Made by a program: the position numbers and the translations under genes | In this document: positions 1 to 50,720 of the stretch, piece after piece | Numbering within the stretch: position 1 is the first letter of the stretch | How the letters are laid out: each line of letters opens with the position of its first letter | Notes under the pieces: generated by a model | Databases searched by the model: none | What the model was told of the DNA's origin: nothing | Seen by the model: only the letters and a program-made list of their open reading frames with translations | Assembly: GCF_037038585.1 (NCBI RefSeq) | Contig: NC_092522.1 | Span: 126,152,661-126,216,660 of the forward strand | Reading direction: 5' to 3' | Origin: Patagioenas fasciata | Lineage: Eukaryota > Chordata > Aves > Columbiformes > Columbidae | DNA: 64,000 nt

Positions 1-605
1 GTCAGTGAAGCATCGGGACCCTGCACCGCCCCGACTGCCCCTGCCCCAGGGAACCCCGGGCCTGCGGGGCCTCAGCTCCCCGGGAGACCCCCCGGTTCAG
101 CCCCCGGTTCAGAGTTTCCCGCGCACTTCACGGACCGCCTGCTCCTGCAGTTCAGAGCGTTTGGACAAAACGCGCGGCCGGCGCCGGGAGCCAGCGGTGC
201 CTGATCCGCATCCCCGCTCCGGATTCCCGGTCCCGAACCCGCCCCAGATCCCCGCTCCGGGTCCCTGGCGGGCCCGCGGCAGAGCACACCGGCCCCGCTA
301 CCCGCGCTCGGCGTCAGGGGCGACCGGGCCTTCGAAAGGAACGCGGGCGCTGCCGGCGGTGGCTCTGCGGCCAGCCCGGAGCGGCTCCCGCTGCCGCCCG
401 CCCCCGTGGGGACAGGGCCCGGCCAACGGGGCCGCCCATCGCGCCATCGAACACCGGCGCCGGGCCTGGGCGGGGGAAGCTCGGCCCGGCGAGACCCTCG
501 GGGCGAACCGCGAGTCCCACCCCGGCTGCGCCGGCGGCGCCATCCCGCTCCCGCCGGCCCGCGCCCCGGGGCAGCACGGCGGGCACGGCCCGGACCGACA
601 CTCAC

Positions 606-917: not shown

Positions 918-3900
918 AGCGGCGAGCAGCGCGGCGGCCCCGGTGTGCGTGCTGGTGCTTGGCATGGCCGGCTCCGGGAAAACCACCCTGGTGCAGGTGA
1001 GCGCGGCGGGGGGCGCTGCCGGTGTCCCCGCTGCCGATGTCCCCGCTGACGTGTCCCCGTGTCCCCGCAGCGCCTGGCGGCCCAGCTGCACGCGCAGCGC
1101 TGCCCCCCGTACGTCATCAACCTGGACCCGGCCGTGCGCGAGCTGCCGTTCCCCGCCAACATCGGTGAGTGCGGGCGGGCCCGATCCCGCCGGGACACGG
1201 CGTGACACCGGGCATTGGGAACACTGTGACACCGGGCACTGGGAACGCTGTGACACCGGGCACTGGGAACGCTGTGACACCGGGCACTGGGAACGCTGTG
1301 ACACCGGGCATTGGGAACGCTGTAACACCGGGCATTGGGAACACTGTGACACCGGGCACTGGGAACACTCTGACACCGGGCACTGAACACACACGGCGTG
1401 ACACCAGGCATTGGGAACACTGTGACACCAGGCACTGGGAACACTGTGACACCGGGCACTGAACACACACGGCGTGACACCGGGCATTGGGAACACTGTG
1501 ACACCGGGCACTGAACACACACGGCGTGACACTGGGCATTGGGAACACTGTGACACCGGGCACTGAACACACACGGCGTGACACCGGGCACTGGGAACAC
1601 CGTGACACCGGGCATTGGGAACACTGTGACACCGGGCACTGAACACACACGGCGTGACACCGGGCATTGGGAACACTGTGAGACCGGGCACTGAACACAC
1701 ACGGCATGACACCGGGCATTGGGAACACTGTGACACCGGGCATTGGGAACACTGTGACACCGGGCACTGAACACACACGGTATGACACCGGGCATTGGGA
1801 ACACTGTGACACTGGGCATTGGGAACACTGTGACACCGGGCACTGAACACACACGGCGTGACACCGGGCATTGGGAACACTGTGACACCGGGCATTGGGA
1901 ACACTGTGACACCGGGCACTGAACACACACGGTATGACACCGGGCATTGGGAACACTGTGAGACCGGGCACTGAACACACACGGCATGACACCGGGCATT
2001 GGGAACACTGTGACACCGGGCATTGGGAACGCTGTGACACCGGGCATTGGGAACACTGTGACACCGGGCACTGAACACACACGGTATGACACCGGGCATT
2101 GGGAACACTGTGAGACCGGGCACTGAACACACACGGCATGACACCGGGCATTGGGAACACTGTGACACCGGGCATTGGGAACACTGTGACACCGGGCACT
2201 GAACACACACGGCGTGACACCGGGCATTGGGAAGACTGTGACACCGAGCACTGAACACGCACGGCATGACACCGGGCATTGACCACACGGCCCATGTGAC
2301 ACCCATACATTAAACATACGGCCTGTGTGACACCCGGACATTGACCACACAGCCTGTGTGACACCTGTGCATCGAACACACATCCTTCCGGGAGTGCCTG
2401 TGTCCGTGTTCCACGGCACCGGCGGAGGGGTGGGTCTGTCACCCATTGGGCTGATCGCTGATGTCCTTTCAGAGCTTCCCGGTCCCAGCATAGGAATGAC
2501 TTTAAGCGTTTGTTGTTTGCTTTTAAATGTAACTCTTTTCTCCTACCAGTCTGTAACAGGTGAAGTTATAGGACCAAAGACATTCTTCTGTTGCGTTTGT
2601 CCGTTGTTTTTCACAAGATCTGGTTCAATTTGATGCGTTTTGGTTCTTGTGGGTGTTTTCTTTGTCAGCAATGAACATATTGGCAGGTTCCCTCTGGTTC
2701 CCTGTATCCAGAACAATGGTGGCCATATCTGCTAGCAAATAACTTCCTCACAGAGCTTTAAAAGACATGAACTTTACAGAAAACACCTTAACAATAAAAC
2801 AGACCTTATGTTATAGAATCATAGAATCATTTTGGTTGAAAAAGACCTTTAAGATCAAGTCCAACCATTAACCTCACACTGCCAAGGCCGCCACTGTTCT
2901 GTGTCCCTGCAAACCTCATGTCCGTCTGTCCAGCCCTCCAGGGATGGTGACTCCAGCACTGCCCTGGGCAGCCTGTTCCAATGCCCCACAGCCCTTTGGG
3001 GAGGAAATTGTTCCCAGATCCAACCCCAACCTCCCCTGGCGCAACTTGAGGCCGTTCCCCTTGTCCTGCGTTCCGCTCTTCCAAGGAGCTCACAGGTCGT
3101 TGGGTTTGTGAGCGTCCTGCCTCTTAGACTTTTCCAGGTTTGTCATCCTGCCTCTGCAGGGGGTAAACAAGCAGTGTGGGTACCCAGGTGGTTTTAGTGG
3201 TGTCAGGTAAATAATCAGAGTATCTGTTCCAGTGCTGGATCTCTAATAATACAGTCAGATACTGTTACCTTGTTAGCTGATGTTGATCAGCTGAGAAAAA
3301 CATTCAGCTGAAGAAATTGCAGCTAAAATCCTAAACTGGCAGTGTTTCATGTGAATTACATCGGGTTTCGTATGTATGTTGAGCCCTTAGCAGATGGGTC
3401 GGGTTGATTTATTTGGGAGATTTTTCCTGTTGGTGCTGGATCTGTTACTGAGACAAAAGGAAGGAAAAAATAAGGGTGTTCACCTGTCAGCAAATTGATG
3501 AAGAGGTGTATTTTAAATGTATTGTCCTAAAACTATTTATACGTCTTCCTTTTCTAGATATCAGGGACACTGTGAATTACAAAGAAGTCATGAAGCAGTA
3601 TCCTTTTTTGTGTAAATACCGCTCCGTGAAATCCCCGATTTGGTGGGAGCAGACTGTCGGTTCTGCAGACCGCGTGGAGGCGGCGGGAGGTGTTGGCATT
3701 GCAGCAATGCAGAATGCTGCGTGGAGGTTGGAAGGTTTCAACTATGTATTTCTTGCATGTGAGGTTAGAAATGTATGTTCTACAGGATTTGATACCCCTG
3801 AGGTCATTTTCTCCTGTGCTGAATGTGGTTCTGCCTATTAGTGTGTTCTTACAAACCATAGACCCTCTGCCCATGTTTTTTCCCTTGTTGTTCTTCTGAA

Positions 3901-6900
3901 GAGCTTGTATCTTCCTTGGTGGAAGCCAGCAACCTTCTCCTCATGTTTTAACAAATCAAATTTCATTTGTTATAAAAAAATACACAAATTCCTATTTGCC
4001 TGTAATGGGTGGAGAAAACTGTCTCCACATTGTTTGACTGTAAACAGAGCATGGTTGTCTTTCTGGATCTCAGACGCTGGACCGCTGGCTCTCGTTGCAC
4101 AGCAGCTGGTGACAATGGGTCAGTAACATCACACCGAAACGGCTGCACTTGGGAGCGGTGCGGAGGCCCTTTGTCTTCTACCCAGTAGCTTGTGCAGACG
4201 GAGATCATGTACAGTGTTTGGATTTGACTTCTAAATTTTATGTTTTAGACAAGAATAGAGATGGTGGGAGACAGAGTTATTGATTTTGGCTGTTGGTTGA
4301 TTTGGAGTTACCAGCGAAACATCCAAGTACAAGTTTCGGTTTGGTCCGTAGGTGCACTGTTTGCTTTGCTGTGTCTGTTAGCCATTGCTGGAGTTTGAGC
4401 ACCTCATTCAATAGTGCTGAAGGAGGGTGTCTGGCCTCGTGCTTGGATATTGAGAGCAGGGCCCTGGGAGACAGTAGGTACTGATCAATCAGTGCTGGTT
4501 CTTATGTAGTTAAAATAAAACAAACATGATTAATATATAGATCTGTATAAGTGAAAAAGGATTTTGAAGTCTTTAAGGTGACACTTGAAGTATCTTGACA
4601 ACATTAATTCCCATTATCATTTAAATTCTGCTGAAAAATTCATTATATTTTGAAGTATATATTCTTAAAATTAAGGGCATTCAGACCTTTGTTAAATTCT
4701 GAGTTATTTGCTGTGTTGTAAATCTCTTTGGAAAGACCAAGTTGGCTTTCCTGTGTACACATACCTATATTTTCTCTGTCCAGAACGGTTCTGCTCGAAT
4801 GCCGTCAAGGGGAAGCCACGGCCTGGCCCCGCCCCCTTGGTCCGTCACACGTGTTCGGGCAGGACAGAGACCAGTGGTGCTGGTTACAGACTGTGTACGA
4901 GGGGCGTGTGTTGGTGTCCGTGCGCGTGGTACGTGTGCAGCTGTTACCAGAGTCAGAAAGGCCCTCCGGGGTCTGCTCATCCCCCGCTTTCCTGAACAGA
5001 GCATCCAGATACGGGCTGGGCCCCAACGGTGGCATAGTGACCTCTCTCAATCTCTTTGCCACACGATTCGATCAGGTACGTGGTTGTGCTGTGTGAATTC
5101 GATCAGGTACGTGGTTGCTCTGTGTGAATTCGATCAGGTACGTGGTTGCTCTGTGTGAATTCGATCAGGTACGTGGTTGTGCTGTGTGAATTCGATCAGG
5201 TACGTGGTTGTGCTGTGTGAATTCGATCAGGTACGTGGTTGTGCTGTGTGAATTCGATCAGGTACGTGGTTGTGCTGTGTGAATTCGATCAGGTACGTGG
5301 TTGTGCTGTGTGAATTCGATCAGGTACGTGGTTGCTCTGTGTGAATTCGATCAGGTACGTGGTTGCTCTGTGTGAATTCGATCAGGTACGTGGTTGTGCT
5401 GTGTGAATTCGATCAGGTACGTGGTTGTGCTGTGTGAATTCGATCAGGTACGTGGTTGTGCTGTGTGAATTCGATCAGGTACGTGGTTGCTCTGTGTGAA
5501 TTCGATCAGGTACGTGGTTGTGCTGCGTGAATTCGATCAGGTACGTGGTTGCTCTGTGTGAATTCGATCAGGTACGTGGTTGTGCTGTGTGAATTCGATC
5601 AGGTATGTGGTTGTGCTGTGTGAATTCGATCAGGTACGTGGTTGCGCTGTGTGAATTCGATCAGGTACGTGGTTGTGCTGTGTGAATTCGATCAGGTATG
5701 TGGTTGCTCTGTGTGAATTCGATCAGGTACGTGGTTGTGCTGTGTGAATTCGATCAGGTACGTGGTTGCTCTGTGTGAATTCGATCAGGTACGTGGTTGT
5801 GCTGTGTGAATCCGATCAGGTACGTGGTTGTGCTGTGTGAATTCGATCAGGTACGTGGTTGCGCTGTGTGAATTCGATCAGGTACGTGGTTGTGCTGCGT
5901 GAATTCGATCAGGTACGTGGTTGCTCTGTGTGAATTCGATCAGGTACGTGGTTGTGCTGTGTGAATTCGATCAGGTACGTGGTTGTGCTGTGTGAATTCG
6001 ATCAGGTACGTGGTTGTGCTGTGTGAATCCGATCAGGTACGTGGTTGTGCTGTGTGAATCCGATCAGGTACGTGGTTGTGCTGTGTGAATCCGATCAGGT
6101 ACGTGGTTGTGCTGTGTGAATCCGATCAGGTACGTGGTTGTGCTGCGTGACTCCGCGGTACGAACGCCGCACCGGGACAGCGAGGTTTGTGCGTGCGGGG
6201 TCCCGAGAGCGCCGCGCTGGGGCAGCCTCGCGTCTGGAGGTACAGCGCTCTCCACACGCACCCATGGGTTCTACAGAGCAGCCAAGCGCGTTAACTTTCA
6301 TGTGAGAGATTTCAGTTTTCAGCTTTTTTGAAAGTAAAACATTCTTTAGTCTTTGTACATAGCTGTTGTGTTGCACTATGTCCGCTATAAAATCTTTCGT
6401 TTGAATGATCTGGTTTTGAAGTAGGGAAAGGTGTTACGTTTTCCCAGGCTTTGGTAATTGGCTGCTCTCTGTAATTGTAACGCTAAACCAGTGCTGGGGC
6501 AAGAACTTAAGCAAGATCTTGAGATGGTGCACGATCTGGTAGTAAAAAGGTGGGAACACCTGTGTTTGTTACACCGTCTCTTCAGCCCGGTGCCAGAACA
6601 GAAAACCGGGGTTGTCGTTGCCCTGTGCAGTGTCTGAGCGTCTGTCACCCTCCCTTAGTCGGGCATTTTCACACATAGAAAAGTCGAGACTTTGATCATC
6701 TTTTGACACGTAGTCTGTTATGAAATGATTATGAAGTTTCCTGTTGTGGGCCTGAACACAAAACATACTCCTCCTTTTTCATCAGGTGATGAAGTTTATT
6801 GAAAAACGACAAAATGCATCCAAGTGAGTACATTCTACCTGCTTTTCTGAGATCAGCGGGGGCAGACCCCATGAAGTCCTAAAAAGGTTCTCTGCATGTT

Positions 6901-9900
6901 TTCCAGTTGTTTCTCAGCCTCAGTATAAATTTTGTGTGGAAAAGGGCAAAGAATTAGAACAGATAAACCAGACTTCTGATACATTGAAGAAATGTCTGCT
7001 GATTCCAGTTCTGCTTTGCTCGTCTTCCATTAGACTGTCATTGTTCCTCACACAATGTTCAGTAGGCAACAATTAATTCTTCTTATGAACGGTTTGCAGT
7101 ACTAAGTGTCTGTCAGACTGATACCTTAGACTTCAATAGAATCTGAAGAAAGTAGGTGCATCTTGGTGACAGGATCCACACAGAAGTTTTCGGGCATGCC
7201 CGCAGATCTTGTCCCTGTTCGGGGGAAACTTCCCTGATCTGTAACGGAATAATCACGTGATCTGCTGTTACGTGCTTGTGGTAATTAATCCCTTCAGAAC
7301 AGGACCTTGTGCTTAACTAATCTTCCCTCATTGTTTCTGAGGGGCTACTTCTTAACAGGTATGTTATCATTGACACACCAGGGCAGATTGAGGTGTTCAC
7401 CTGGTCAGCGTCAGGAACCATCATAACTGAGGCCTTGGTGAGTGTTTTCTCCGTGACTTGGCAGTGGGGCTGCGGGAAAGAAGTGGCTGTGGAACAGCAT
7501 GTACTGCTGATTAAAGTGTCTTTTACACTTTGTTTCCAGGCTTCCTCCTTCCCTTCGGTTGTGGTTTATGTGATGGACACCTCTCGCAGTACCAACCCTA
7601 TCACCTTTATGTCCAACATGCTGTATGCCTGCAGGTAGGAAGAGCTGGAGACACAGTCCATCTGCTTGGATTGCCCTGTCTCTTTGAGATTTATTTTGGA
7701 GGGGAATCAGAGAATGGTTTGGGTTGGAAGGGACCTTTGAAGACCATCCAATCCAACCCCTTCCATGGGCAGGGACATTTTCAGTAGATTGGGGTGCTCA
7801 GAACCCCATCCAGGCCCCGTCCAGCCTGGCCTGGGATGTCTCCAGGGATGGTTCATCCACCCCCTCTCTGGCCAGCCTGGGCCAGGCTCTCACCACCCTC
7901 AGCACAAACAATTTCTGCATCATGTCCGGCCTGAATCTCCCTCCTTTAGTTTAAAACCATCACCCCTTGTCCTGTCACAACAGGCCCTGCTCAAAAGTCT
8001 GTCCCCATCTTTCTAATGGGCCCCTTTTAAGCACTGAAAGGCCGCACTCAGGTCTCCCCGGAGCTTCTCTTCTCCAGCTGAACCCCCCAGCTCTCTCACC
8101 TGTCCTCCCAGCAGAGCTGTTCCAGCCTCGGGTCATTCCTGGGGCTCCTCTGGCCCCTCTGCAGGAGCTCCATGTGTGTCCTGTGCTGAGGACCCAGAGC
8201 TGGACCAGCACTGCAAGGGGGTCTCACCAGAACGGGGCAGAGGGGCAGGATCCCCCAAACCTGCTGCTCACGGGGCTGGGGACGCAGCCCAGGACACGGG
8301 TGGGTTCTGGGCCATGAATTCACATGGCTGCCTCATAGCCATGTAATCTGCTGATTTGTTATTCTTTATCTTGGTGCTTTTCCTGTTGGATAAGCAAAAT
8401 AATTTCAGTGCCAGTAGACGTTTGAAAGCCATTGGGTCAGACTCCCACTGACAACATCACACAGTCCTGAGACTCCGGTGTGGTGAGGGCTGGTTACATC
8501 AGATCTAATGCACTGCCTGTTGCTTATAAAATCATTTATCTGAGGTGTATCAAGATAGTGTTGTTTAAGCTCCTGCTTGTAAACACATGTTTTATTCTGG
8601 TGGGTTTTTTTGTTTGTTTGATTTGGGTTTTTTTAATATTATTGATACTTTCCATGATCCTTCAAGATTTGTTTGGAGCTCAGCACAGCATGGAGTTCTT
8701 TTCTATGTGTTCCTCCTCATGCATGGATTTATCTGTTTGGTTTCATGTTAACCAGGGACTAAATACTTATGTAAAGATAACATACCTAGAGCTGTCGTAA
8801 TTCATGGTAAATGTTGGTCGGTTTTCAACTGGTTTTCAAATAGGTTTCAAAAACCTGTCAGTCCTGGTCAAAGGCAAAAGCTGTATCACCGTGATAGGCA
8901 GTTCTGCTTTGTAGATGTTCTGAGTTATTAGAATTCATTACTCAGTTCACAAAAAATATCTCAGAACCTAAGGTTTGAGTTAAAATAATTATAAAATGCA
9001 AAAAGAGTTGAAACTGGGATCTGAGAGTCCTAGAAAACAGTTATCAAAATCAACTGGCTGTCTAGAAAGGTATTTTACATCCTGCAGATGTGCCCTTGCA
9101 TCTGGGGGCGTACTTTGTTCAAGCTAGATCTGGGTGAAAGTCACATTCTAACTGACGTGGAGGAAAATCATCCCTTGAAGTCAAATATATTCAGTCTTGC
9201 ATAAGTCTTGTCTGCCTTATGCTTAACTTGTTTTCTATTCTAGTGAGATTTAAAATAATGTGTGATTTTTGGTGTCTTTTGTTTGTTCTCCCCTCAGTAT
9301 CCTGTACAAGACAAAGCTGCCTTTCATTGTTGCCATGAACAAGGTGAGTGGAAGCGCGGTTTCTGCGTCCTGCTGAGCGCTGCTTTGTTCAGTTTGCTTT
9401 GCTGTAGCGTCTTTGTCCTACTGCAAATGTGGATTTTCTAGGAAAGAGGGGTGGGAGGGAGCTGCAGGCTGAAACTGAACCTGAAACGGGTCTTCAATCT
9501 CATACAAATGCACAAGAAGAGTCGGGGTGGGCAGTTACACCCGAACTGTCCAGTTACAGGTAATACTGACAGGCTGAAAAGTAGTTTGCACCGTAACCCT
9601 AGGCTGTAGGGAAACTTAACGTTGTAGCGAAAGGGTGAGTTCACCACCGAATCTGCTCTTGCAGTCTCCTGTAATCAGTCCTCATTAATTACTTGTGCTC
9701 GGCAGCGGGCTGAGCGGGACTGTGTGACCCTGCCTGTTGTGAGGAGGAAGTCACACGTACTGCGGCAGCACAAACTGCACAAAAGGTTACGCTCAGACCG
9801 GGGCTGAATGTTTTGAATCCACGTTTTGAAACTAAGTTTAAAATGGAAAGTTTTTATTTGTCCACTGAACAGCCTGTCTAAGAATTAGTTCTTACTTCTA

Positions 9901-12900
9901 AGAAGTCTCTCTTATCCTTCCAGACCGACATCATTGACCACAGTTTTGCAGTAGAATGGATGCAGGACTTTGAGACTTTTCAGGATGCGCTGAATCAAGA
10001 GACGTCTTATGTCAGCAACCTGACTCGTTCTATGAGCTTAGTGTTGGATGAGTTTTACAGTTCGCTGAAGGTAAGGATCTTTTTTTCCTACCTCTCATAA
10101 AATCCTGCAGAAGAGAAAGCTGGAGGACAATATTATGATTTGTGTAAATACTTGATGGTGGGAATCACTGGAGAGGGTCCAGAGGTGGCTACAAAGATGC
10201 TGAGGGGTCTGCAGCATCTTTGTGATGAGGAGACTGGGAGAGCTGGGGCTGCTGAGTGGAGAAGAGAAGCTGAGAGGGATGTGATCAATGATCAGTAGCT
10301 CAGGGGGGGTGTCAGAGGATGGAGCAGACTCTGTTCAGTGGTGCCCAGCGCCAGGGTGAGGGGCAGCGGGCACAGACTGAAACACAGGAGGCTCCATGTG
10401 AACATGAGCAGAAACTTCTTTGCTGGGAGGTGCCAGAGCCTGGCCCAGGCTGCCCAGAGCGGGTGTGGAGTCTCCTTCTCTGAGACATTCAAACCCCTGG
10501 GATCCTGCGTGATCTGCCCTGTGACCCCGCGTGATCTGCCCTGTGACCCCATGTGATCTGCTCTGTGACCCCGCGTGATCTGCTCTGTGACCCCGCGTGA
10601 TCTGCTCTGTGACCCCACGTGATCTGCTCTGTGACCCCGTGTGATCTGCCCTTTGACCCCGTGTGATCTGCCCTGTGACCCCGTGTGATCTGCCCTGTGA
10701 CCCCATGTGATCTGCCCTGTGACCCCGTGTGATCTGCCCTGTGGCCCTGTGTGATCTGCCCTGTGGCCCTGTGTGAGCAGGTGGGGCTGAGGATCTGCAG
10801 AGAGCCCAACCCAGCCAGGCTGGGGCTGCGCAGTGAGGAAGGCAGAGACACACACGCTCTTTTCAATGGTGCCAGGTGAAAGGACAAGAGGCAATGGACA
10901 CAAAGTGAAATACAGGAAACTGGTTTAGACAGAAGAGGGAAAAAGAATTACTGTAATTTGACTGATTGAGCACTGGAACAGATGGTCCAGAGAAACTGTG
11001 AAGTTTCCATCCTTGGAGATGCTCAAAACATGTTCCAGCAACATCTTGAGCCACCTGTTCTAGTTAGTCCTGGTTTTTGAGCAGGAGAAGTTGCACTAGA
11101 TGATCTCCAGAGGCATCTTCCAAGCTCAGCCGTTCTGTCCTCTGTAAAAGGGCTTTGTGCTGCCCCTTCGAACTGGAATCTGTTGGTGGGCCCTGCATTG
11201 GGTGAGAATTTGCCGCTTTGAACATAAAGTAACTTTTGTGGCAGCCTGAATCATATCAAACTGCATTTAACTCATCTTCAGAGAAAGCTAAGATGGGCTG
11301 GTAAGAGGTAATGGGCTGTGTTGTGGTGTTTCCCATCTGAGACAATTTCCCTGGTTCTGAAAATGTCAAGTACAGCTGGACAATTCACTCTGTAGGAAGA
11401 GGGGAAAGAACCTGAAAAGCAAACAAACAAAATGCTGTATATTTGCTGACACAGGAAAAGTGGGGTTTCCACTTACCGGGTTTTGAGAGGACAAATCATT
11501 CAGTTTCTCTGAGAACACTGTGCACTGGGGGGTGCTCGTGATCCCGCAGTCTGTGCTAAAAAGGTTTCACTGAGTGTGTCTTTCATGAGATTTTACTTAA
11601 GAAAAAGCAAACAAATGGCTTTATGGATACTACAAGAAAGGCAATGAAAATGAATAAGTGATTCCATTCATACAGATAATGATAATTTAGCCAAAACAAC
11701 AATACTGTAAGTGCCCTGTGTGGAACAACATACAGTATTTTGAAGCCGACTGTTGTGGTGCCTGGTCCTTATTTGCCAATCAGCTGTTAGAACAGCAGAG
11801 TGCAGAGGACTATAGAGGAGAAGGCAGCTTGTACTGGAATGCAAAGAAGTGTAAATATTAACTTATATATGCACAGTGCCTAGACCAATGCTTAACATCC
11901 TTTGGAGTGCCTGACTGTTTGCTGTGCTACTGATGAAATGCAGGCCCGTGTTGGAAAAGTCTGACGTCCAAAGGCGAGGAGTTAAGACTGTGCCGCTTAT
12001 GACAAAGAGGGAGAATTTTCATTAAGGGATGTAAGATTCTTAAGGGTCACCAAGTACTGGCTAGTATAGCCTTCATTAGAGGTATGTTTTGATAATTGGT
12101 CTAATAAAAGCAGAGCAGGTGGCCAGAAGTGTAGTGACAGGTGTGCGTTTGGGATGTATTGCACAGTAACCGATGGAGTTCTCCACCTCTTGCTGTGCCG
12201 GAGCTGGATTTGGGTGCCCTTTGAGATGTGCTTCAGCAAAGCTCAGAACTGCCGAGGCTGCAGGTCGGTTCTGGTGGTCTGCTGTGCTCTGGTTCTAGCG
12301 CACGGATATTGCAGCAGTCCTACCGACCGCTTACAGCACCGGGTCAGAATGGGAGCTTGGGTTACTAACAACAACCAAGTAAACAGAGAAGGACTTGACC
12401 TTCCTGTTGAATTGCCCCATCTTGTTCATTATGTTTAGACATTGTCTTAACTCTGCTTTTTGTGGGATATTGAGATTGGGGGTACCAGGATGGTGCAGTC
12501 AGCTGTTCTATTTGTCTGTTTTTAACTGGAGTTCCTCCCTCATGGTAACACTTGTAAAACAGGAAAACCAGGCTCCGCAGAAGGGAACGAAAACCAAAGC
12601 AAATCAAACAGTAACCCAGACTGACAAACACCAAACCAAACAAACCAGAGGCAGCAACATTAACAGCAAGCAGGGAAACAGGTTGACAGTAGGAGTGACA
12701 GAAGCAGGAGTGTTACTGCACACCCGTACACACTGTGGTGGTTAAATGGGTGTCGTTAGATCCCCCTGGTGTTTTCAGTTTAGTTTTTGGTTTGTTTTAT
12801 TTCTTTTAAAGATACTGCTTAGCTCTTATCGTCCATCAGTTACCTAAATCTTGGCTCAGCTGCTCTTCAGTGCTGGCGTGGTTCTCTTTTCTAGGTGGTT

Positions 12901-33300: not shown

Positions 33301-36300
33301 CTGTGGCAGGACACGTCAGGAGCTGCCGGGTCCCTTCCCGTGGCTTCTGTTCCTTACAAAGAGGAGCTATGAAGATGCTGAGGGGTCTGGAGCATCTTTC
33401 TTCTGAGGAAAGGCTGAGAGAGCTGGGGCTGTTCAGCCTGGAGGAGGCTGAGAGGGGACCTTATTTATTCTGGTAAATATCTGAAGGGTGGGTGTCAGGG
33501 GATGGACCAGACTCTGTTCAGTGATGCCCAACACCGGGGTGAGGGGCAACGGGCACAGACTGAAACACAGGAGGCTCCATCTGAACATGAGGAGAAGCTT
33601 CTCTGCTGTGAGGTGCCAGAGCCTGGCCCAGGCTGCCCAGAGCAGGTGTGGAGTCTCTTTGAGACATTCAAACCCGCCTGGACTGACCTGTGTGATCTGC
33701 TCTGGTGACCCTGTGTGATCTGCTCTGGTGACCCTGTGTGATCTGCTCTGGTGACCCTGCGTGATCTGCTCTGGTGACCCTGCGTGATCTGCTCTGTGAC
33801 CCTGCGTGATCTGCTCTGTGACCCTGCGTGAGCAGGTGGGGCTGGGGATCTGCAGAGGGCCCTGCAACCCCAGCCAGTTTGTGGTTTTGTGATTCCCCTG
33901 CTCTCCCCTGGGGTTTGGAGTTCCTGCACTGAAAGCAGAGTGTGTGGGAAGGGAAGGGGCTGTAGTGGCAAGTGCTGGAGGCAAAGGGGCCACTGAGGAG
34001 GAACAGGTGCAGTGGGGAGGAGAGAAACAGCGGGGTGTTAGAATCCAGACACCTGCAGAGCACAGCTTGTCCTCGGATCCAGATCTGGTCCTGGACCGGG
34101 CCCTGCTGAGCCTGGGGCTGTACGTAAAGCAGGCTTGGGCGAGGGCACAAGGGCAGACCCTTGCTGCAGACTCCCATGTGCTCCCTTGTCCTTTCCCTTT
34201 CCTGGTGCAGTTCTGGAGCGATGGTCCGAGGCCATCACCGTGTACTTGTGCAGCCAGAAGCGCCGCCCCTTTCCTCGCAGCAGGGCAGCACAGCTCTGTG
34301 GAGACATTTACCCGCTCTTCCATCACGCGGTGGTAAATTGGCTGGGCTGCAAGGAGGAAGAGGTGAGAGGTGCTGCTTCCCACAGCTGGGGCTGCAGCGG
34401 GGGTGTCCATGTCAGTGGGTCCGTCTGTGCCCTGTGGGGTCAAGCAGAGGGAGGTGGGGAAGGGAGGGGGTCTGGGGGGAAAGCCCCTGAACCAGGAGCC
34501 TGCTGGCACTGTGCTGGGGCTGGAGGCTCCCTGGAGAGAAGCAGCCGAGTCCTGTGGCCTTGGGCTACCAGCCTGAGGAAACGCCGGCTCTGCTCTGGAG
34601 TCCCTCTCCCATCGGGCAGAAGGGAAAGGGAACCCCTCCCAGTGGGAAGGGCAGACTGGTGTCCAGGGCGTGCTGAGCACCAGGCAGAGCTTCAGCTGCC
34701 CAAGCAGAGCCTCTCCCTTCCCTCCCCAGGATAACCGGGCTGTCCTCGGTGCGGTGGCTGCCATGGTTGGTGTCCTTGTGTGTGAGCAGCGGCACTGCCA
34801 GCGTGCCCGGGAGCAGCTCCTCTGGCTCCTGTGCCAGCACCAGCGGGTCCGGGACACCTCCCGGGTCACCGAGGTGAGGACTCACGCAGGGCCTGGCGTG
34901 GCTGATCGGCGGGTCTGTGCCAGTGCCACGCGGTGCTGGGGGCTGTGGGGTGCCAGGGGAGCTGGGAAGCCCTTAGAGGAGGAGCAGGGAGAGCAGAGGA
35001 GGCCTGAGGCTTCCTGGGCTCTTTGGGCAAGAAAAGAGCAATGAGGGGGACGGGGACAGGGGGAACCAAGAGTCCCTGGGGCTCATCTTCTTGGGAAGGG
35101 AGGCACTGGCACCTCCCTGGGGCTCTGTGTGTGGGCAGAGTTTTGCCTCAGAGCTGGTGAGGGGCTGGAGCACAAGTGTGATGGGAGCGGCTGAGGGACC
35201 TGGGGGTTCAGCTGGAGAACAGGAGCTGAGGGGAGACCTTCTGATCTCTGAACTGCCTGAAAGGAGCTTGGAGCCAGGGGGGTCGGGCTCTGCTCCCCAG
35301 GAACAAGTGCCAGGAGCAGGGGAAACGGCCTCAAGTTGCCCAGGAGAGGTTGAGGTTGGATGTGGGAACAATTTCTTCCCCAAAGGGCTGTGGGGCATTG
35401 GAACAGGCTGCCCAGGGCAGTGCTGGAGTCACCATCCCTGGAGGGCTGGACAGACGGACAGGAGGTTCTCAGGGACATGGAGTAGTGCCAGTGTTAGCTT
35501 GACAATTGGACTCGATCCTGATGGTCTCTTCCAACCAAAATGATCCTATGATTCTACGAATCGGAGTTGTCAGCAGTGTCCCTGTGCAGAGAGCAGAGAC
35601 CTTCTGATGCTGCTCTGAGAGGGGCAAATGAGGACCCCGGGCAGGAGGGTTTGGGGATGTCCCTGGGAGCTGACATCAGGGGCTCCCCTCATCCCAGCTG
35701 TGCTGGGCTTCTGCTTTCCCTGGAGCATTGCGGTGGCTTTAACCTCCTCTTCCTCCCCTCCCTGTTCTCCTGTAGAACCTCGGCCACGTACTGCAGATGC
35801 TGGGGGGAGGTCAGACCCCAACCGCACGGGGCTCAGCTCTCGGCACCCGCACCACTGGGCACCGCCAGGTAAGGGGAGCCTGCGGGGCAGGGCAGGGTGT
35901 CCCTCCGCCAGGACCAGCTGCAGACCAGCGCGCCAGGCTGCGAGCCAGGGGCCATGGAAGAGCCTTAAGGGTGCAGGAAGAGCAATGCTGGGATCCCAGG
36001 GAATGGCAGAAGATGTGCTGGGGAGGGTCAGTGGGACATGAGAAAAAGGTTCTTCACCCAGAGGTGACGGACACTGAACAGACTCCCAGGGAGGTGTCAC
36101 GGCCCCAACCTGACAGTGTTCAAGAAGAGACTGGACAATGTCCTCAGACACAGGGGGTGACCTGTGGGGTGTCCGGTGCAGGGACAGGAGTTGGACTCGA
36201 GATCCTTGTGGGTTCCTTCCAGCTCAGGACACTCTGTGGTTCTGCGCTTGGAAGGGGCTGGAGGGGCAGCCTGGTTCCCACAGCCATTTCCCTCTCGGCC

Positions 36301-39300
36301 AAGCTGCGGGAGGAGCAAGGGAGGGGAGGAAGGCAGAGAGCACCAATTCTTTTTGGTCCCTCTCAAGGCCGATGCACATTTCTCTCAAATGACCCACGTT
36401 CCCACAGGTCCCTGGTGTGACTGAGGTGCCTGGCCTGGCCTGTAAGGCAAAGCCATCCCGCCCCATGACGCTGCAGGGTAAGGAGAGGGGACGGGGCAAT
36501 GTCCCTGTGCCGTGGCAGCTCTGTCCCTGTCCTCGGCAGCCAGGGGCAGCCGCCTGCTAATGCAGAATGCGATTTCTTCCCTGCAGCCCGAACCTGCCCC
36601 GCAGCTGTTCTGTGGTCCCAGCTGAGGCACAGGAGCGAGGCCCAGCGTGTGTCAACCCTGAGCCTGCTGGGAGAGCTGGCCCGCTCTGACGGTCAGTGCC
36701 AGGGGCCGGGGCTGCTGGGCCGAATGCTGGAATGGGCTGGAAGTGGTGCAGCTGCACCCGAGAGGAGCTGCAAAGAGCGGGTCCCCCAGCTTAGCTGACC
36801 CCCTGTGATGATGCTCGAGCTGTCCCCGGCAGTTAGAAATGGGGGAACACCAGGGACGGTGCTCCAGGCTCAGTGACACGAGTGGGTGGTTTGCACAGGA
36901 GATGCTCGTACCAGTGCCATTTCTCCCATTCTCTGTGTTACCAGAGCTTTCAGTGCCTCTAAAATAGCTGTGCCTCTAGAAAGAGTCACTCTGGGCACAC
37001 CCCTGCCTGATGTGAATTCAGAGTCAGGCCCTGCTTCTCTGTCCCAGCAGTGTACGTGAAGCTTGGAAGCTTCAAGGAATCCTTCTGCCGTCAGGCTCTG
37101 CCTCAACACAGCTCTCTGTGTCTCTTCCAGCTCCTGTAGCAAGGCAGAAGCTGCCCCAGGGGGTGTTGGCCCTGCAGCTGGTGTGCACCGACCCCAGCGT
37201 CCAGGTGAGCTGGTTTGGGAAGGGACAGTGCTGCCAGGGAAGGCAGAGAAACCCTTTTCCTCGGGGCAGAGCCTGACCAGGCCATGGCAGCAGCAGCAGA
37301 AGCTTCTGCCGTGCCCTCGTCATCTCCCCGTGAGCCACAAAGGCTTCCCCAAGCGCAGGCGGCTTCCCTGTGGTTTGGAGCAGGAGGGTGATAACCACGC
37401 TCTCCCTGGCAGGTGCGGAGGGCAGTTCTGGAGTTCATGCGGGAACTGCTCAGCTCCGGCTCCCAGAGCTGCTGGCCATGGGATGTGGTGGGGCACATCT
37501 TCAGCGAGTACAGCCGGAGCTCGGGCAGACTGGTAAGGACAGAGCAGGACACCGGGGCTTCGGCCGGTGCCGGGGCCGTGCTGAGAGCTCCGCAGGCGCC
37601 CTTGCCCATGGAGAGCTCCACACTGCAGGGCCATTGGCGCCAGCTCAGCCATCGCAGCAGCCTCCACAGGGCTGTACCATGGTGGTGGAGATGTTGGGGT
37701 GACGTGGGTTTGCACCTGGTCACGCCACCCGGGACTGCCTGCACGCCCCACGGGCTGAACTGTGCACACACACACCTCCAGCAAAGCTGCCTTGTGAAGG
37801 GAGGGACAGACTTGTGGGGACAGGACATGATCCGTCCCGAAATGCTGATGGGCCATCAGCCCAGCTCAGCCCGTGCACACAGGTGGGCCTGGCTAGAGGA
37901 GCTTTCTGTGGTGTTCTCGTGCCCCGGCCCTCCAAAGCACGCCCTGGCCATCCCATAGCAGCCTGGGGCCCACATCCCTTCTGGCAAGGGGACAGGCTGC
38001 GCGGCAGCCCCTGCGGTGAGTGTTTCCAGACGGGCACCCAGGAGATGAAGGCCAGGGATGGCCCAGCCTCCTGCTGGCTTGCCAAGGATCTTCCCTCTCT
38101 GGCTGGAGCATCTGTCTGGCTGGGAGATGTGTGTGTGCCACTCTTCTCCAGGGCTCCAGGAGGCTGTTCTGGGAGCAGGGCAAAGGAAAGGGCTTCTGGG
38201 TTCTCCTTCGGGAGGTCGCTGCTCCCGGGATGCTGGTGCAGCAGCAGTGGTGGGGCTGTGCCTGAGCCTGGTCGGTCAGGAGCTGAGAGGAACGGGGTTT
38301 TGCCAACTCTGTCTTGCAGGCGGCAGGAGGCCTTTTTGCCTGGGAGCCCCAGGAGGACAGAGCTCTTCGAGCCCCGCACGTGGACATCCTGGGCTCGCTG
38401 GATGTCTCTCGGAGAGGAATGTCTCAAGTAAGTTGCCCTCTGGCGTGCTGCTGTGGCCACTTCTTGCCTTCAGAGTGTTTTTTGTTGCTCTTCCTCATGG
38501 CCTGAACCTCTCCCCCCACATGTGCTGAAGCGCACGAGGCTCAGGGAAATGTAGACCATCCTTTACATCTTGGAGCCGAGTGGAGATGCTGGTGTGCTGA
38601 ATTGCTCGGTTCTGCTCTGCAGCTCCTGTGGCCCAGGCTGCTGCAGTACGTGGTGCCAGCCCAGTGCAGCGGCGTGCTGATCCCGCTGTCCCGCTGCCTG
38701 CGAGCCCTGCTGGAGAGACGGGAGAGAGCGGGATGCGAGGAAGAGGAGGAGCCCGATGCTGTGGACTCGCAGGAGCAAGGTAGGAGCCCCAGGGAGTGCT
38801 ACTGGGTTTGGAAGGGGCTCAGACCAGTTTGTGTCTCCCTGTGCCCCATGAACCCTGAGCAGGAGCCCAGGGAAAGCAAATGGCAGAGTCAGGCTCTGGC
38901 TCCTGGGGAGCTGGGGCTCCTTCCTGGCCGTGCTGGATCTGCCTTCATCCCATGCGGGGCAGCCTGGGGAGCCCCCGGGCCAGCACTGTGGCCGTGCAGC
39001 TGCTCTCAGCCCTGTGTGGGCCACGGGAGGTACAGGGGTCAGGGCACAGCGGGGCCTCTTCATCTCACCAGCCTTTCCCCCTCCCCGCAGCCCGGCTGCC
39101 GGCTCCCCAGGCGCTGCTGGCTGGACCGCTGGTGAGTAGCGGGGCCCTGGGGAAAGAAAGAGCTTTTCTGGCAGCACTCCCGAGCCTGCCCGAGCCCCGC
39201 GGGGATCCCAGTCCTGTCTCGGGGCTGGCAGGGGTGGCTCTGGTGGCAGGGGTGACCCCTCTCTGCTGCCCTCGCCCAGGTGCTGGCAGCAGCTCCTCAC

Positions 39301-45860: not shown

Positions 45861-46765
45861 GCTTAGGCGGGAAAAGCTGAGGTACCTCGGGGAGGGGATG
45901 ATATCGGGGGAGGCTTTGACGGGAAAGGCTGAGGTACCTCGGGGAGGGGATGATATCGGGGGAGGCTTTGACAGGAAAGGCTGAGGTACCTCGGGGAGGG
46001 GATGATATCGGGGGAGGCTTTGACAGGAAAGGCTGAGGTACCTCGGGGAGGGGATGATATCGGGGGAGGCTTTGACAGGAAAGGCTGAGGTACCTCGGGG
46101 AGGGGATGATATCGGGGGAGGCTTTGACAGGAAAGGCTGAGGTACCTCGGGGAGGGGATGATATCGGGGGAGGCTTTGACAGGAAAGGCTGAGGTACCTC
46201 GGGGAGGGGATGATATCGGGGGAGGCTTTGACAGGAAAGGCTGAGGTACCTCAGGGAGGGGATGATATCGGGGGAGGCTTTGACAGGAAAGGCTGAGGTA
46301 CCTCGGGGAGGGGATGATATCGGGGGAGGCTTTGACAGGAAAGGCTGAGGTACCTCGGGGAGGGGATGATATCGGGGGAGGCTTTGACAGGAAAGGCTGA
46401 GGTACCTCGGGGAGGGGATGATATCGGGGGAGGCTTTGACAGGAAAGGCTGAGGTACCTCAGGGAGGGGATGATATCGGGGGAGGCTTTGACAGGAAAGG
46501 CTGAGGTACCTCGGGGAGGGGATGATATCGGGGGAGGCTTTGACGGGAAAGGCTGAGGTACCTCAGGGAGGGGATGATATCGGGGGAGGCTTTGACAGGA
46601 AAGGCTGAGGTACCTCGGGGAGGGGATGATATCGGGGGAGGCTTTGATGGGAAAGGCTGAGGTACCGCAGGGAGGGGATGATATTGGGGGAGGCTTTGAC
46701 GGGAAAGGCTGAGGTACCTCGGGGAGGTGATGACATTGGGGGAGGCTTTGGCGGGAAAGGGTGAG
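45860..46765 (+). repeat. 52-bp minisatellite, about 17 copies
   Basis: Highly homogeneous units contain AAAGGCTGAGGTACCTCGGG, GAGGGGATGATATCGGGGGA and GGCTTTGACA. Changes are few (CTCAGG for CTCGGG, GACGGG for GACAGG). Degenerate copies continue to about 46925 with AAATGCTGAGGTA. The array sits in what would be the first intron of the transcript from the island at 45.4 kb. Confidence 0.95.
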
Positions 46766-47139
46766 GGACTTAAAGGAGAGGACGGAAGGGAGAGAGGTTT
46801 TGGTGGTAAAGGCTGAGGTACCTCAGGGAGGAGATGGCATCGCAGAGGCTGCAGTGGGAAATGCTGAGGTAGCTCTGGGACGGGATGGCACTAAGGTGTG
46901 GTTTCAAAGGGAAATGCTGAGGTACTTTGAGGAAAGGATGCTGGGCTAGGAACTATGAACACATCAGATCGGTTAAGAGAATGTTGATGACAGAAATTTC
47001 TACAGTAAAGTATTCCAGCAAAGACAGGGAGATGAGCAAAACTTATATCAGGCCTCCTAGGATTCCTGCAGGTTAGGGGTCAGGGATGATGAGGTTGTTA
47101 ACTCGGTCCTAACTTTTTCTTTCTCTCCCTCTCTTGCAG

Positions 47140-49780: not shown

Positions 49781-50720
49781 TTGCATTGGCAACATACGCA
49801 GGGAACATATCAGTTTATTACCCTCAACATAAACTGTGGGCTGAAATTGGTAATTTACCGATGTATGGCAAGTGCTGCTGTCAGCAACGACAAGACTGAA
49901 TTTACCGATGCCTCTGGTTGCTCACGTAAAGTTGTAATTACATGGCTAAACTCAGATACCCAGTGTTCCAAACACAAAGTAGAAAAAGGAGACCAGGGGT
50001 CAAACAAGTTCTTGAGCTGACAGCTGTTAGGATCGCTTTTGAGTGTTCTGTAATGAGGCTTTGAATGTTGTAACTGACTCATATTGTGCAGCTGGCATAC
50101 TTATCCGCCTGGAAGCTTCTTTTCTTAAGGAAGAGGATGATCCTCTTTTGATGGCTGGATTGAGAATGCTATGGTTCCTAATAAATCATAGACGTCATGG
50201 TTTTTATGCAGCGCACATCCGCTCTCGCGCTGCCCTTCCAGGACCTCTTGCGGAAGGCAATAGGAGGGCCGATGCACGAGCTGTGCCACTTACTGTGTCT
50301 AAAGCCTTGGAGCAAGCTAAATTATCACATAAACTCTTTCACCAGAATGCAGAGTCGTTAAAACGACAATTTCAAATTACAACGGATCAGGCCAGGAGCG
50401 TTCTTATGTCCTGCCCTGATTGCCAACAGTCGGCACCCGTGCCATCCAAAGAGGGTGTTAATCCAGGAGGGATTACTGACAAGTACGGCCAGCTGATGTA
50501 ACGCGTTGTTCTGAATTGGGTAAATACATATGTGTTTCTGTAGACGCTCATTCCAGATTTCTCGTTGCGGCTGCACGCACTGGTGAAAGAGCACGGGACG
50601 TCTGTAAACAGTGGTTGGCGTGTTTTGCTGTTTCAGGAGTTCCAGGATATGTAAAACCAGAGGAAAGCGGAACGCACGCTGGATTAGAGGAGCGATCCCC
50701 CGAGTGCCCAGCGCGCCGTA
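49781..50720 (+). pseudogene. Decayed endogenous retrovirus pol fragment (RNase H to integrase)
   Basis: From about 49880 the frame reads an RNase H beginning (EFTDASG). The frame then shifts near 50020. It continues through the RNase H end (HIRSRAALPGPLAEGN) into the integrase zinc-binding domain (histidines in SHKLFHQ and the CPDC pair) up to 50501. A further shift leads into the start of the integrase core (50516 on, VSVDAHSR with the first catalytic aspartate), which breaks off after about 45 residues. The rest of the core is missing. The order is that of a class II avian endogenous retrovirus. It is non-functional: at least two frameshifts and a large deletion. I have not reconstructed it. 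Confidence 0.85.

Follow-up and report, generated by a model that had tools for sequence, protein, structure and literature searches.

The border between exon 4 and intron 4 of GPN1 in Patagioenas fasciata lies within a long tandem array of near-identical 5' splice sites, which raises the question of how one donor could be selected from so many apparent equals, and at what cost to the gene when another is used. Here this question was addressed by computational analysis of a 64-kb window (the whole stretch of DNA studied, 64,000 nucleotides; Table 1) together with searches of the 1.45-Gb host assembly.

Anatomy of the array

The array measures 1085 bp, that is 35 head-to-tail units of 31 bp, and was returned by TRF as 35.0 copies with 95% matches and 0% indels, which was confirmed unit by unit; the first-pass annotation of this locus was therefore exact as to position, unit length, number of copies and absence of indels. 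Each unit joins the 10 nt that end GPN1 exon 4 to the 21 nt that open intron 4. In unit 1 the first 10 nt (ATTCGATCAG) are coding, with codons ending ...TRFDQ, and the other 21 nt form the start of intron 4. The proposal that the exon 4/intron 4 border had seeded the array was borne out by the unit table, as was the count of 35 donor copies, the AG/GT junction being kept in 35/35 units and forming part of CAGGTACGT (CAG/GTACGT) in 33 of them and of CAGGTATGT (CAG/GTATGT) in the other 2. The array had also been described as perfect, which holds for its exact and indel-free length but not for its sequence, with eight unit types (present in 16, 8, 4, 2, 2, 1, 1 and 1 copies), only 16/35 units identical to the consensus and five variable positions. 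Variation was confined to unit positions 3, 14, 22, 23 and 27, with a mean pairwise divergence between units of 4.4%. The regularity of the array alone excludes chance, and the GPN1 donor array is confirmed as real.

The 15-mer core CGATCAGGTACGTGG, absent in its exact form from 2/35 units, gave 33 exact matches on the forward strand of the host genome, all inside the GPN1 array, and 0 matches on the reverse strand, with none for the reversed control; this exact 15-mer search of 1.45 Gb revealed no second copy of the array in the host assembly. A coding role of the array was considered and rejected for both strands, as TGA recurs about every 93 nt in each plus-strand frame within the array and the longest open stretch on the minus strand is 30 codons in each frame. 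No known RNA family was found over positions 3000-7400 at gathering thresholds. A decayed 36th unit 3' of position 6150 was likewise rejected, GGTACG alone being alignable and this no better than chance (P 0.19). The motif ACGTG, the core of the hypoxia response element, is present in most units (33 in total) and is probably incidental; positions 5066-6150 contain 73 CpG.

Table 1. Features of the GPN1 locus, given in positions of the 64-kb window.
Feature	Position	Strand	Description
GPN1 exon 3	3558..3597	+	40 nt; joined frame
GPN1 intron 3, probably U12-type	3598..5008	+	donor and branch-site motifs
U12-type 5' splice site GTATCCTTT	3598..3606	+	directly 3' of exon 3
U12-type branch-site-like motif TTTCCTGAAC	4988..4997	+	branch A at 4996, 12 nt before intron end
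GPN1 exon 4	5009..5075	+	67 nt; joined frame
Donor array	5066..6150	+	35 x 31 bp; exon 4 end and 5' splice site in each unit; from TRF and unit table
Unit 1	5066..5096	+	authentic donor, GT at 5076; from reading frame and GPN1 homology
GPN1 intron 4	5076..6785	+	1710 nt, of which the array takes 1075 nt
GPN1 exon 5	6786..6823	+	38 nt; joined frame

Gene model and consequences of alternative donor use

The exons of GPN1 were placed by tblastn with a human GPN1 query sequence, and junctions were chosen to keep a single reading frame open across exons 1-11, the joining being stopped at exon 11. The joined exons encode 272 aa with no stop, and this product matched Pfam PF03029 (ATP_bind_1) at 6.4e-83 and PDB chain 9t5j_B, 'GPN-loop GTPase 1', at 2.9e-158. 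Homology thus supports an exon 4 border at the donor of unit 1.

In the first-pass annotation it was predicted that use of any donor but the first would bring in an in-frame TGA six codons on. This was the case for 34/34 alternative donors (k = 2..35), all of which yield the same stop, at codon 102, with six added residues after the exon 4 end at codon 95 (both counted from 0). Skipping of exon 4, skipping of exon 5, retention of intron 4 and retention of intron 3 each also lead to a stop within the joined exons. A premature stop with several exons downstream is expected to elicit NMD, and since the shared stop precedes several downstream exons, transcripts made from later donors are expected NMD targets.

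A probable U12-type intron upstream of exon 4

U12-type introns are characterized by the consensus RTATCCTTT at the 5' splice site and TCCTTRAC at the branch site. The 5' splice site of intron 3, GTATCCTTT, agrees with the full RTATCCTTT consensus, is the sole match to it on both strands of the window, and pairs with U1 at just -2.3 kcal/mol. Towards the 3' end of the intron, TTTCCTGAAC is the sole TTCCTNRAC on the plus strand of the window; the branch-like TCCTGAAC within this region is one position off TCCTTRAC. No perfect copy of that consensus occurs in the window, and its relaxed form TCCTNRAY turns up 15 times on the plus strand of the window. Because the branch motif is one base off and its looser form recurs 15 times, the donor is the stronger evidence for U12 identity. 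From these motifs, intron 3 is very probably of the U12-type (minor) class, in which case exon 4 would couple a minor-class acceptor on its left to a 35-fold U1 target on its right.

A minor intron can be spliced more efficiently when U1 is bound to the major donor that follows it (Wu and Krainer 1996, as relayed in excerpts of PMC8034651 and PMC8329584). A literature search returned no paper pairing GPN1 with minor or U12-type introns, and GPN1 does not appear in the main text of PMC8034651, supplements aside. What is new here is the setting, namely a donor array directly behind a probable U12-type intron; the first-pass annotation had mentioned neither this intron class nor the human precedents treated below.

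Donor strength and choice of the first donor

Pairing energies were computed against the 5' end of U1. The array donors gave -9.0 kcal/mol in 33 units and -9.4 kcal/mol in 2 units. They had been called strong, which is a relative matter: among the 10 U2-type GPN1 donors scored (one of which, i12, is of uncertain placing) just that of intron 5 (-7.1 kcal/mol) is weaker. The donor of GPN1 intron 6 is among the sites pairing with U1 at -9.4 kcal/mol or better, a value reached by 59/3905 plus-strand GT sites outside the array. With near-equal U1 pairing across the units, strength cannot separate unit 1 from its copies.

Position may do so. Human events with near-equal donors between long introns show a preference for the upstream donor, and two identical strong donors tested under exon definition resulted in exclusive use of the upstream one in five minigenes; across all human donor pairs, with strength unmatched, ~60% prefer the downstream donor (PMC9225289 for all three). 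Together with the low one-unit retention in ABCA7 described below, the five minigenes offer a partial answer to how U1 deals with 35 equal sites.

RNA folding and accessibility of the donors

A segment of ten array units folded at -104.4 kcal/mol, as against a mean of -86.5 kcal/mol (sd 4.0) for 100 dinucleotide shuffles, of which 0/100 folded as well. With G-U wobbles counted as pairs, the core CGAUCAGGUACGUGGUUG forms a palindrome whose centre is the donor GUAC, and it pairs with a second copy of itself along nearly its full length (-19.8 kcal/mol). Self-complementarity as high was found in 26/278 other AGGT sites and 31/2000 shuffles, i.e. the core is not unusually palindromic. When 14 units were folded in their real flanks, the cost of opening the donor 9-mer was 2.8 kcal/mol for unit 1 and 6.8 kcal/mol (median) for the copies; in 300 control arrays tiled from shuffled units, this median was equalled or exceeded in 15 and the gap in 6. 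With the whole array, unit 1 was easier to open than the median copy in 8/8 settings, by 1.4 to 4.1 kcal/mol, and some single copy was easier to open than unit 1 in 4/8 folding settings. In partial transcripts the opening cost of unit 1 was 5.1-7.1 kcal/mol. Judging from these folding models, mutual masking of the copies would be a soft aid to first-donor use and not its cause.

Growth and age of the array

Like unit types recur at a lag of seven units in 14/28 cases, compared with a shuffle mean of 7.3 (P 0.0018; as the best of 15 lags, ~0.03 after correction), a pattern that fits duplication of seven-unit blocks; clustering of like types at lag 1 was not significant (12/34, P 0.11). At 1.34, the CpG observed/expected ratio of the array exceeds that of the remaining intron 4 sequence (0.86), in keeping with a young array, although low methylation would give the same result. 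Just five unit positions vary, too few to infer whether the donor copies are under selection.

Other arrays in the window and in the host genome

Three CAGGTRNGT motifs spaced 10-40 were found 550 times (332 + 218) in the host genome, as compared with 309 times (160 + 149) for the reversed motif. Among 100 matches listed of these 550, 99 fall in a single array of 36-bp units close to the beginning of contig 1 and 1 in a GTGTG-like repeat; the places of the GPN1 array itself belong to the other 450. The 36-bp array consists of 113.8 copies at ~300.9-305.0 kb of host contig C1 (1365-5461 in L039), with CAGGTGAGTTAAC in 113 copies at constant spacing, and no evident exon was seen in its 5' flank. 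An array of this kind with no clear exon suggests that exon junctions are not the only source of donor-motif arrays, and we make no claim to a general class. Beside it lies a 38-bp array of 67.8 copies (6626-9207 in L039).

Within the window, intron 2 of GPN1 contains a minisatellite at 1195-2386 with TRF periods of 52, 76, 128 and then 31 bp; it begins 31 nt past the intron 2 donor, which is itself excluded. Two GPN1 introns (2 and 4) thus open with kb-scale arrays. Further arrays at 10495-10776 and 33687-33831, with periods of 22 and 23 bp, have related units (...GTGATCTG...) and similar flanks, and look as if they had expanded within the 3' end of a CR1 LINE. At 45870-46836, 18.6 copies of a 52-bp unit adjoin a GC-rich stretch; the consensus unit carries the donor-like GAGGTACCTC, and no exon was identified at this array. 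Two Pfam hits lie elsewhere in the window: Maestro HEAT repeats (PF23210) at 38506-39135, a weak hit whose 1.2e-05 does not reach the curated cut-off, and an integrase zinc-binding domain (PF02022, 9.6e-13) at 50043-50501 that is probably part of an endogenous retrovirus.

Comparison with known donor-spanning minisatellites

Arrangements of this kind are already known, as minisatellites in human ABCA7, CBS and IFI6 span an authentic splice donor. The GPN1 array shares their anatomy, with units of minisatellite size, a first donor that is authentic by reading frame and homology, and later units that carry a usable-looking donor. The IFI6 minisatellite has a 12-bp unit. The primary paper on this minisatellite (the gene is also designated 6-16 or G1P3) is reportedly that of Turri et al. 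from 1995. According to excerpts of PMC4526556, two downstream repeat units of IFI6 are used as donors, giving three mRNA species. Minisatellite units thus serve as multiple splice donors in IFI6 much as the GPN1 units are donor copies, but the IFI6 unit is shorter and its downstream units lead to known mRNA species and isoforms, whereas those of GPN1 would lead to a stop.

In ABCA7, as far as the excerpted text of PMC5954066 describes it, the intron 18 VNTR has a 25-bp unit and 12 to ~427 units, its first GT being the donor of exon 18. One-unit retention amounts to 2 +/- 1% and is unchanged by VNTR length, while longer VNTRs are associated with lower expression and more exon 19 skipping, and the canonical transcript is outnumbered in some brain samples by the alternative ones combined (PMC5954066). 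On this description ABCA7 and GPN1 have in common a minisatellite at the 5' end of an intron, a unit that includes the authentic donor, slight variation between units, and a frameshift when one downstream unit is used; they differ in that the 25-bp ABCA7 unit begins at GT, with no exonic part as described, and in that polymorphism and RNA are known for ABCA7. For CBS, the portions of PMC2630376 and PMC1395315 consulted describe the c.1444_1467+7 VNTR as a 31-bp repeat of 16-21 units at the exon 13-intron 13 border. It therefore resembles the GPN1 array, to the extent that these portions show, in its 31-bp unit of invariant length, its single-base variants and its position across an exon/intron border. 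It is unlike GPN1 in having 24 exonic and 7 intronic nt per unit (as read from its name) and 16-21 units, and in its gene and sequence.

Origin and possible roles of the array

The array is probably a young and nearly neutral donor-spanning minisatellite in which the first donor is dominant and a small fraction of transcripts leaks into NMD. A 31-bp segment made up of 10 exonic and 21 intronic nt would have been duplicated and would then have grown by slippage or unequal exchange, partly blockwise. U1 is computed to pair with all 35 copies alike. Under exon definition the donor nearest the acceptor, that of unit 1, would be preferred, as published data suggest; exon 4 is likely to be recognized by exon definition because it is short and flanked by 1.4- and 1.7-kb introns. 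Pairing between copies is further predicted, as a soft effect, to make interior donors harder to open than unit 1. Rare use of a later unit, likeliest unit 2 by analogy with ABCA7, would result in the stop and hence in NMD, lowering GPN1 output slightly, perhaps more so in longer arrays. Strict neutrality is not assured, because in ABCA7 length altered expression and exon 19 skipping. The splicing-fidelity sink and the polymorphic unit number put forward in the first-pass annotation stand as conjectures.

Several other explanations were weighed. The copies might act as intronic enhancers, not splice sites, the extra U1 helping the U12-type acceptor of intron 3 to be recognized across exon 4, to the benefit of GPN1 output. 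The probable U12-type intron directly upstream speaks for this, but a single authentic donor already provides U1, the interior copies are predicted to be masked and the position of the array may be due to chance, so that we regard this explanation as unlikely. A variant, in which later copies are held in inter-unit duplexes and seldom spliced yet still recruit U1 to the benefit of the same acceptor, appears less likely again. Equally unlikely to the enhancer proposal is that unit number is under selection as a control of dose, setting the share of later-unit use or exon 5 skipping and hence GPN1 output. It would accord with the stop that follows from 34/34 alternative donors and from skipping of exon 4 or 5, with the drop in expression and the more frequent skipping of the following exon that go with greater ABCA7 length, and with the title of a paper on the CBS VNTR, which states an association with reduced activity; against it, one-unit retention in ABCA7 is constant across lengths, and the five variable positions of the GPN1 array give no readable selection on the donor copies.

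An error of assembly, affecting the unit number or the whole array, has to be considered for any tandem array, as such arrays are error-prone. The eight unit types in irregular order with no indel argue against it, and so does an assembly of 1.45 Gb in 359 contigs, which suggests long reads; an artefact is accordingly judged very unlikely. Recursive splicing, with each AG/GT serving as acceptor and then as donor so that the array is removed stepwise, would suit the direct adjoining of AG and GT in each unit and is the least credible of the explanations, to the point of being hardly tenable. The units have no pyrimidine tract, their pyrimidine content at -20..-5 being 0.50 as compared with 0.69-0.88 at 8/10 GPN1 acceptors (exons 2-11), and the candidate recursive AG/GT site was rejected on this ground; the content is likewise 0.50 at two GPN1 acceptors, those of exon 4 (U12-type) and exon 6. 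Introns of 31 nt would, moreover, be too short for vertebrates.

Implications

The locus offers 35 near-identical donors at fixed 31-nt steps facing one acceptor, a natural ruler for 5' splice-site choice on which donor use per unit would test exon-centric against intron-centric proximity directly. If the exon 4 acceptor is of the minor class, the locus would also provide a test, in an endogenous gene, of cross-talk between two spliceosomes, and if masked copies did recruit U1, the length of the array would tune minor-intron splicing and not donor choice alone. The GPN1 case adds a bird gene to a kind of arrangement described in a few human genes, one of which, ABCA7, shows effects on expression.
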